DNA from: Pseudomonas piscis
Lineage (GTDB): Bacteria; Pseudomonadota; Gammaproteobacteria; Pseudomonadales; Pseudomonadaceae
DNA length: 64,000 nucleotides
Reading direction: 5' to 3'
Assembly: GCF_009380155.1 (NCBI RefSeq)
Contig: NZ_WHUV01000001.1
Coordinates: 1,674,001-1,738,000, forward strand
Part shown: in pieces, positions 4,575 to 58,244 of the stretch
Numbering within the stretch: the first letter of the stretch is position 1
Layout: each line of letters begins with the position of its first letter
Translations under genes and position numbers: made by a program
Notes under the pieces: model-generated
What the model was told of the DNA's origin: nothing
What the model saw: the letters and a program-made list of their open reading frames with translations, nothing else
Databases searched by the model: none

Positions 4575-4687
4575 GGTGGCCCCATCGGTCCCCCCGCAAC
4601 GATTACCCGTTAACCTGGTCAGGCCCGGAAGGGAGCAGCCACAGCGGGAACATTGTGTGCCGGGGTGTGGCTGGTGGGGCTGCCTCC
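4575..4687 (+). ncRNA. ffs: 4.5S RNA, small bacterial signal recognition particle RNA
   Basis: The conserved SRP RNA core is present: CCCGCAAC, then GGTCAGGCCCGGAAGGGAGCAG (4618-4639) with the GGAA tetraloop and asymmetric internal loops, then GTGTGCCGGGGTGTGGCTGG. The terminal arms GGTGGCCCCA (4575-4584) and TGGGGCTGCC (4675-4684) pair over ten positions with two G-U pairs. The RNA binds Ffh and targets membrane proteins co-translationally. The location after ligA and before dnaX matches P. aeruginosa. The exact ends are inferred from the terminal stem. Confidence 0.95.
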
Positions 4688-38044: not shown

Positions 38045-38090
38045 GGGCATAAAAAAACCGGAAGCACCTGCTTCCGGTTTTTTTATGCCC
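38045..38090. terminator. Bidirectional terminator between the hydrolase and aer genes
   Basis: A near-perfect palindrome: GGGCATAAAAAAACCGGAAG on the left and its reverse complement on the right around CACCTG. A- and T-tracts flank the GC stem, so it works for both convergent genes. Confidence 0.95.
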
Positions 38091-54559: not shown

Positions 54560-54997
54560 TCAGCGCTTGGCCAGGTGTACCGCCAGCACGTCGCAAGGTG
54601 CTCCGTGCAGGACGTCGTTGGCGGTGGAACCGAGCAACAGGGCCAGGCCATGGCGACCGTGGCTGCCGACCACGATCAGGTCGCACTCCTGTTCCTTGGC
54701 TAGGTGATGGATTTCCTGGCGCGGCTGGCCATAGGTCAGGTGGCTGTATTCCTTGGTCAGTTCCGGGTACTTGTTGATCAGGCGGTCGAGGCGTTCCTTG
54801 GCCTGGTCGAATTGTTGCTGCTGCAGTTGCGAGAGATCCATGGGGACGTCGCCACCGAAGGCCATCGCCATCGGTTCCACGATGTGCACCAGCGATAGCT
54901 TGGCGCCATTGCTCACCGACAGTTCGCGGGCCCGGTGGATAACAGGATCGCACTCTTCGGTTAGATCTACGGCGACCAGAATATGGTGGTAGGGCAT
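54560..54997 (-). CDS. Universal stress protein (UspA family)
   Basis: The 145-residue protein has the Usp fold: MPYHHILVAVDLTEE at the start and the ATP-binding loop VVGSHGRHGLALLLGSTANDVL (G-x2-G-x9-GS/T). GGAGGAG precedes the ATG. Usp proteins help survival under starvation and low oxygen; in Pseudomonas several are Anr-controlled, but I see no clear Anr box in the 97-base upstream gap here. Confidence 0.93.
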   Translation of the reverse strand: MPYHHILVAVDLTEECDPVIHRARELSVSNGAKLSLVHIVEPMAMAFGGDVPMDLSQLQQQQFDQAKERLDRLINKYPELTKEYSHLTYGQPRQEIHHLAKEQECDLIVVGSHGRHGLALLLGSTANDVLHGAPCDVLAVHLAKR

Positions 54998-55094
54998 GAG
55001 GCGCTCCTCCAGAGGATTGCAATAGCTTCAAGTATGGCTGGTTTAAAGCGGGTTGGTTGCAACGGCCCGCTCATCGAGAATCGAGAGTACAGAT

Positions 55095-55532
55095 ATGACG
55101 GTCTGGATAGTGGTGTCAATCCTTGTGGTGGTCTTGAGTCCCTGGGCATGGCTACGACCTTCGCGTCGCCAGAGTGGCTTGATCGCCGTGCGCATGGAAG
55201 CTCGGCGCATGGGCCTGGCCATGCAGTTGGCGCCCCAGGAGTGGCCGCACTGGCTGGGCCAGCAGCCTCCGGACCCGTGCCCGCAATACCACCGCCCACG
55301 GCGTGGGGGGGCGGTGGCGTGCTGGAGTTATTGGCAAGTGGCCCCGGGAAGTTGGGTCAACCAATGGCGTGAGCCATGTGACGATGAGTCGCTGCTCCAG
55401 CACCTGCGAACCCTGCCGGCTGGTGTGTTCAAGGTGGAAGCCGACAAGCAGCTGATCGCCCTGTACTGGAATGAGCGGGGTGAGCCCCGGGTGTTGCAGG
55501 ATATCGCCGCGGTACTCAAGGCCCTGGCTTGA
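55095..55532 (+). CDS. Hypothetical membrane-anchored protein (PA3015/PA3016-like position)
   Basis: The 145-residue protein has one N-terminal membrane helix (TVWIVVSILVVVLSPWAWL) and a Trp/Pro/Arg-rich soluble part (SGLIAVRMEARRMGLAMQL, WSYWQVAPGSWVNQW) ending KVEADKQLIALYWNE. The start at 55,095 has GAGAG upstream; the 14-codon upstream extension is weaker. Its location between the usp gene and fadBA resembles unknown genes in P. aeruginosa. No function is known to me. Confidence 0.82.
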   Translation: MTVWIVVSILVVVLSPWAWLRPSRRQSGLIAVRMEARRMGLAMQLAPQEWPHWLGQQPPDPCPQYHRPRRGGAVACWSYWQVAPGSWVNQWREPCDDESLLQHLRTLPAGVFKVEADKQLIALYWNERGEPRVLQDIAAVLKALA

Positions 55533-55561
55533 GCGCCGAGCAAGTTGGGCGAGCCTGTGTG

Positions 55562-55657
55562 CCAGGCAATAAAAAGCCCGACTCAGCATCGGGCGGGGTG
55601 GCCAGGCAGGCCGGAAACTCTCATGAAGCCACCTTCGGGTGGCTTTTTGTTGCCTGG
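55562..55657 (+). ncRNA. 96-base RNA element with a long-range stem competing with a terminator (putative)
   Basis: CCAGGCAATAAAAAGCC (55,562-55,578) and GGCTTTTTGTTGCCTGG (55,641-55,657) pair over 17 positions with one T-G pair. Inside lie GCCCGA…TCGGGC (55,576-55,593) and the terminator hairpin AAGCCACC/GGTGGCTT. The 3' arm of the long stem includes the terminator's 3' arm and T-tract, so the two structures exclude each other. It could be an attenuator, a small RNA or a decayed element with terminal repeats. Confidence 0.45.
55626..55648 (+). terminator. Rho-independent terminator upstream of fadBA
   Basis: AAGCCACC and GGTGGCTT form a stem around TTCG, followed by a run of T. It ends transcription from the membrane-anchored protein gene. 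Confidence 0.85.
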
Positions 55658-55919
55658 GACTCGGGTTTGAGACGGCATGCAGTTCCAGCGGCCATGCATG
55701 CGGCGTTGTTCGGATTTCGTCCTGAAGCTTAGCCAGGGGTTGTCATGCCGGCGGGAGATTTAGGGCGATTTTTCTAAATATTGATCTTATGAATGACTGC
55801 AGATGCAGGGGCGTGTTGGTGGTCCGCAGCACCCGGGAATGACCGCAAAGTCGCGTTTCAAACAGCATTTCGGACGATTGACAATTAGCGGATTTTCCGT
55901 GAATGTGGCGTACCCAAAT

Positions 55920-55933: not shown

Positions 55934-56096
55934 AAATGAGCGTTTGTATCTCAGGCGTCTCTATACAGATTCCCGATTATCGCGTTGGCGGGTGTGCCTG
56001 GCGGATTGGCGTTAGCATCGACGGTGACGTCAGTGCCATGCCAGAAGTTAGCGTCCGACGTGTACTGTTCAGCTTCCATATCGTGGAGATCAGTTG

Positions 56097-58244
<2,148 letters not shown>

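Follow-up and report, generated by a model that had tools for sequence, protein, structure and literature searches.

A candidate minus-strand small RNA upstream of fadBA in Pseudomonas that may have outlived its host gene

The locus upstream of fadBA raises the question of why an inverted repeat with arms of 17 bases should stand there, and whether it is the repeat or another part of the interval that matters. The window (the whole stretch of 64,000 nucleotides that was analysed) contains two inverted repeats of at least 17 bases with loops of at most 120 bases, and none occurs in any of 20 random windows generated by a first-order Markov model, so that a repeat of this length needs an explanation. 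The stem described in the initial annotation, 17 bases pairing across 62 bases, is real, with 16 Watson-Crick pairs and one G·U pair; an attenuator, a processed small RNA and a mobile element had been proposed to account for it. We give a probability of about 0.7 to the reading that the locus encodes a minus-strand small RNA, absent from Rfam, which outlived its host gene. This reading draws on what the compared sequences establish, namely a conserved core in a fixed place, terminators that covary or are exchanged, and a host gene present in some lineages and absent from others; transcription of the unit is what we infer from them. Elsewhere in the window, at 38,045-38,090, a 21-base inverted repeat with a loop of 4 and A/T tracts on both sides is probably a bidirectional terminator.

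The features of the locus are given with their positions in the window.

54560..54997, minus strand: universal stress protein gene (Pfam Usp), a neighbour kept in relatives
55053..55532, plus strand: gene for a hypothetical protein of 159 aa (open reading frame), convergent with the small RNA, a neighbour kept in relatives
55562..55578: left arm of the stem, CCAGGCAATAAAAAGCC, tail of the minus-strand terminator
55568..55719, minus strand: predicted small RNA, about 150 nt in this strain, its extent taken from the -10-like octamer and the T-tract
55571..55594, minus strand: intrinsic terminator, hairpin 55,594-55,576 and T-tract (terminator scan; covariation)
55600..55614, minus strand: 15-nt core CCGGCCTGCCTGGCC of the candidate small RNA, adjoining the left terminator on its 5' side
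55625..55648, plus strand: terminator recognised by sequence, fold and tail pattern, absent from the listing of the promoter and terminator scan
55641..55657: right arm of the stem, GGCTTTTTGTTGCCTGG, tail of the plus-strand terminator
55726..55733, minus strand: -10-like octamer GCTAAGCT, one change from KCTAYRCT, aligned with GCTACGCT of relatives
56094..58244, plus strand: fadB (Pfam enoyl-CoA hydratase and 3-hydroxyacyl-CoA dehydrogenase domains), divergent from the small RNA

A BLAST search with 55,500-55,700 found matches in 235 of 298 genomes of the genus, and the part shared in most of the matches listed (about 55,563-55,621) is not the stem; it is the left half together with about 27 bases outside the left hairpin. 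In the minus-strand direction this conserved part consists of TTTCCGGCCTGCCTGGCCA, a short spacer and a terminator. The earlier suggestion of a small RNA is supported in kind, but the candidate would be read on the minus strand and is marked by these bases instead of by the long stem. A covariance model of core plus terminator, built from 30 fetched loci, was found at E <= 1e-8 in 206 of the 298 Pseudomonas genomes. Of the 119 model-positive loci that were fetched, each from a different genome, 116 contain at least one of fadB, the 159-aa gene, the usp gene and a gene for an exported protein, and fadB is present in all 60 model-positive loci longer than 1.9 kb; the short flanks of L184, L185 and L205 contain no gene of the fadB locus. 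No Pfam match was obtained for the 159-aa protein.

The exact 15-mer occurs in 236 of the 298 genomes, that is in 182 of the 206 model-positive ones and in 54 of the 92 others, while 38 have neither the model match nor the exact core, which indicates that the unit can be lost. Of the 54 model-missed cores, 15 and 30 were read in their surroundings, five were placed from coordinates, two (G123, G144) were unplaced, and two (G042 and G258, with model scores of 1.6e-8 and 1.4e-8) had been fetched with the model. Altogether 42 of the 50 placed cores adjoin fadB (14/15, 27/30 and 1/5, respectively). Among those placed from coordinates G076 lies beside fadB, and G091, G142, G146 and G194 lie elsewhere, as do the cores of G001 and of three of the 30 model-missed genomes; these eight exact matches are probably due to chance. 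We estimate from the sequences that the core stands at this locus in about 248 of the 298 genomes (206 + 42), a figure which assumes that model-positive genomes with unread flanks resemble those read. Since the loci are related, none of these counts represents independent events.

Named genomes were also scanned for the pattern. Among the 119 stretches listed, every one of the 74 Pseudomonas records is at this locus, including P. fluorescens, P. syringae, P. protegens, P. mosselii, P. plecoglossicida, P. mendocina and P. oleovorans; among the matches listed outside Pseudomonas it is 2 of 45, both unclassified gammaproteobacterial assemblies. When 194 genomes of the order were searched outside the genus, the model matched in 19 at E <= 0.001. 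We took these matches for generic terminators, because none of the 19 loci (L084-L102) has genes of this locus and the best E is only 3.9e-6. The reversed 15-mer, used as a control, was present in 15 genomes with one match in each (counted by eye), but this control is unfair, as hexamers such as CTGGCC are common in coding sequence, and synteny is the better one.

The core itself is nearly invariant. Across 131 loci selected to carry no more than one change, it differs at the first base alone (118 C, 9 A, 4 T); more changes occur in L160 and L184. Reading frames and upstream ATGs around the core differ between lineages (by eye). A block like CAATAGTTAGAAAAGTCGCCCTAA, at 55,760-55,786 of the window in the minus-strand reading, is likewise kept upstream of fadB in many relatives and may be a promoter of fadBA or a regulator site.

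What follows the core behaves differently. The minus-strand terminator, found by the terminator scan as GCCCGATGCTGAGTCGGGC followed by TTTTTATT, has two-sided changes in four of its seven stem pairs, with 98.2% of cells paired (100 aligned units, 90 distinct). None of 500 shuffles gave covariation as high and it was lost at slid positions; the alignment was fitted to the covariance model and is biased in its favour. The GGCC/GGCC pairs of the core, in the same 100 aligned units, show no covariation. Many of the model-missed genomes carry the exact core upstream of fadB, on the opposite strand, joined to a different terminator. In 30 P. putida-type sequences the core is invariant in all, and 10 of 23 predicted pairs, lying in different hairpins 3' of the core, have two-sided changes. 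As judged from these alignments, the core is nearly fixed, whereas the terminators covary and whole terminators are exchanged. An intrinsic terminator at the 3' end, one of the marks by which small RNAs are recognised, is present. In L143, L146 and L450 seven or eight T follow directly after the core, and in these loci GGCC-TGCCT-GGCC with its T-tract could itself act as a terminator.

The origin of the unit is suggested by those relatives in which fadB and the core are separated by a gene for an exported protein of about 270 aa that has a signal-like start. In most of the host-gene loci read, the core comes close behind the stop codon of this gene, for whose product no Pfam family was found at the cut-off. 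The host gene is present in 9 of the 74 named Pseudomonas among the matches listed, including P. mendocina, P. oleovorans, P. peli and P. segetis. When 14 whole genomes were searched, it was found in four and was absent from ten, including the present one, all ten having the free-standing core. Three genomes of another genus of the family (L145, L148, L153) have the host gene and no core within 132 nt behind it. On a FadB tree of 110 rows rooted on that genus, a tree of low resolution in which 4 of 98 inner branches are starred, the host gene requires four changes and the core seven; one cluster of 91 rows is devoid of the host gene throughout, and the core is found in 84 of them. The simplest history consistent with these sequences would place the core in the 3'UTR of the gene, followed by one major loss of the gene in which the core was kept, and by several losses of the core.

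Two groups of loci deserve separate mention. In L472, L473 and L475, which belong to the host-gene cluster, the core is just 879-939 nt from fadB, too short for the entire host gene. Of the three, L472 is the only one in which that gene was detected, and it is possibly decaying in this group. In L176 and L239, both of one genome, the sequence after the host-gene stop is unlike that of all other loci read and holds no core in 132 nt, as if something had been inserted before the core.

A small RNA of this kind would have either a promoter of its own or a place in a 3'UTR. The sigmaS -10 consensus is KCTAYRCT. Of 109 free-standing loci, 57 carry it in the 160 nt that precede the core (mean of 1.4 and maximum of 5 in mononucleotide shuffles) and the other 52 lack its exact form there; it is found upstream of the core in none of 22 host-gene loci. 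P. putida-type and similar loci carry GCTACACT in 25 of 36 cases, 24 of them at 19-21 nt (shuffles, mean 0.2), and 10 of the 11 without it have CTACACT or CTATAGT; these two sets overlap by 14 loci, and their members are related and not independent events. In the window, GCTAAGCT lies 111 nt from the core and is not an exact match to the consensus, which derives from E. coli. A start at this octamer would put the 5' end near 55,719 and give an RNA of about 150 nt, taking in the hairpin of the plus-strand terminator. The fold of this predicted RNA has z = -2.65. The motif suggests that sigmaS may drive the small RNA.

The mechanism that we propose would thus be as follows. The minus strand would encode a small RNA whose unit consists of a promoter, the 15-nt core and an intrinsic terminator, and transcription would run away from fadBA. 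In the P. mendocina/P. oleovorans type, core and terminator form the 3'UTR of the exported-protein gene; in the P. fluorescens, P. syringae and P. putida types the gene is missing and the short unit remains, often with a sigmaS-like -10. The more specific proposition, that a Pseudomonas-wide RNA arose from a 3'UTR, gained a sigmaS promoter and outlived its gene, with a partner common to the genus, either a set of mRNAs or an RNA-binding protein, holding the core nearly invariant while the terminator is freely replaced, is put forward tentatively, at slightly less than even odds.

The same core could instead work as DNA. A 15-mer of the form GGCC-N5-GGCC might be a protein-binding site upstream of fadB which merely happens to stand beside a terminator, and the core is indeed partly palindromic, nearly invariant and kept beside fadB in the long loci. 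We consider this unlikely, since it stands anywhere between about 384 and 1,338 nt from fadB, with an entire gene interposed in some lineages, and since a terminator on the same strand follows the core in both the host-gene and the free-standing state. Still less probable, in our opinion, is that only a 3' end is conserved, the core being a signal for mRNA stability or processing of the exported-protein gene which, where that gene is missing, ends incidental leftward transcription from the fadB region. The position of the core after the stop codon in host-gene lineages, and the presence of the host gene in outgroup-like genomes, are in agreement with such a role; nevertheless, the core has been kept where the gene is missing from the whole genome, even as terminators were exchanged, and the -10 motif is above chance in gene-less loci.

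There remains the long stem. The ordinary terminator hairpin with its T-tract that was initially annotated on the right-hand side does exist: the plus-strand hairpin at 55,628-55,643 is followed by TTTTTGTT, and this terminator probably serves the gene at 55,053-55,532. A further hairpin overlapping the left arm is also present (55,576-55,594), but it is terminator-like on the minus strand, and so the layout is that of two outward-facing terminators. The tail GGCTTTTTNTTGCCTG was found at 46 sites of this 6.9-Mb genome with at most one mismatch (reversed pattern, 1), and in 19 of the 20 of these sites that were fetched (L031-L050) the GGC of the tail marks the end of a stem. A common tail of intrinsic terminators reaches past the T-tract genome-wide. 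The arms match because both are copies of this recurrent tail, and two outward-facing terminators with one tail give an inverted repeat of this length. In this strain and its best-matching relative a second terminator, on the plus strand, shares the tail, and the long stem is its by-product. Neighbouring terminators with a common tail can yield long inverted repeats in this way, and such repeats should be interpreted with caution.

Pairing of the arms was compared across 117 loci, with the left arm set against the fadB side; 112 had a recognisable tail and five did not. The best 17-base pairing is 17 in the window, 16 in L002 (the second-best BLAST match, the window itself being the first), 14 in L201 and 9-13 in each of the remaining 109 loci with a tail, as compared with maxima of 12-13 in shuffled sequences (eight loci); among these loci, strong pairing is confined to the window and its best-matching relative. 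The region 55,540-55,680 folds with z = -4.95, and none of 200 shuffles was equally low. Stem and terminator had been thought to exclude each other, yet the minimum-energy fold accommodates 11 stem pairs together with a right hairpin of 9 pairs and a left hairpin of 6. In a plus-strand RNA ending at 55,652, the long stem is absent from the minimum-energy fold.

An attenuator of fadBA, acting through the long plus-strand stem, would be in keeping with a stem that is stronger than chance in this window, but we regard it as very improbable and rejected it: the pairing is not maintained in relatives, the stem can coexist with the terminator hairpin, the left hairpin is a feature of the other strand, and fadB starts about 440 nt further on with the plus-strand terminator in between. 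A 96-base mobile element is hardly credible in spite of an inverted repeat at each end, as BLAST of 55,500-55,700 places it only once in its own genome, it is syntenic in relatives (the conserved half adjoins the same genes in 116 of 119 loci) and its arms are terminator tails, so that this idea was already contradicted and was discarded.

As to function, we suppose by analogy with small RNAs of similar build, FadZ among them (PMC10703908), that it is as part of the RNA that the core would work, most probably through base pairing with target mRNAs and perhaps in stationary phase; CCGGCCUGCCUGGCC would be the RNA segment whose partners are the targets. No targets were found by examining antisense matches in fadB or by start-codon searches. 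In fadB, antisense near-matches to the core occur at A-G-Q-A-G-P-N, and at the variable alanine the codons permitting pairing (GCA, GCG) number 51 of 186 in core loci and 1 of 15 in coreless ones, against 114 of 364 alanine codons in five window genes; fadB was rejected as a target, for its choice of alanine codons shows no selection for pairing. The pattern CCAGGCAGG followed by ATG within 16 nt gave 68, 52 and 38 matches in three genomes, against 4, 3 and 0 for the reversed pattern, a control made unfair by the frequency of hexamers like CTGGCC in coding sequence. We attribute these candidates to coding-sequence noise; one seemingly shared site lies antisense in a coding frame, presumably that of pheA.

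If the unit is transcribed, a small-RNA family absent from Rfam 15 would be carried by the majority of the species sampled in a large genus of environmental and plant-associated bacteria, adjoining the main beta-oxidation operon and bearing signs of stress-sigma control. If our reading is true, the path from a 3'UTR to a free-standing RNA gene could be traced across living species, in its two states as well as in the disappearance of the gene and the gain of a promoter, and the question of how small RNAs are born would become testable.

Comparison with known RNAs begins with Rfam 15, in which this site has no match to any family at the gathering score. The two matches up to E = 5 are weak; isrB matches the plus strand with 15.5 bits against a threshold of 35. 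Being below the gathering score, the unit is not a member of a family in Rfam 15. The sole match of the window at gathering score is a small SRP RNA gene (4,583-4,679, plus strand). For strain KT2440, we take fadB to be PP_2136. A full-text literature search showed no report of this RNA among the matches listed, although it might be an unnamed table entry in a survey of KT2440 (Bojanovic 2017), and the 15-mer core was absent from the full texts searched.

In the parts cited here, PMC7937890 concerns other loci, and PMC7324555 describes a small RNA of KT2440 at PP_5401/PP_5402, which is an intergenic Pseudomonas small RNA like the present unit, but at another locus. RgsA/P16 is described in the cited parts of its reports as a Pseudomonas small RNA under RpoS (PMC3709562, PMC2375449); RpoS control was found there, whereas sigmaS control of the present unit is deduced from its motif, and the unit matches no Rfam family at gathering score. 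The closest parallel is FadZ, which, according to the relevant sections of the report (PMC10703908), is a small RNA that in Salmonella and E. coli derives from the 3'UTR of fadBA, being released from that end of the fadBA mRNA itself. The two have in common a small conserved 3'-terminal piece, an intrinsic terminator, the fadBA locus and an origin in a 3'UTR. The present unit, set apart from FadZ here by position and description, does not come from the 3'UTR of fadBA: it lies upstream of fadB, on the other strand and divergent from it, its 3'UTR would have belonged to another host gene, and it has a -10-like motif of its own.
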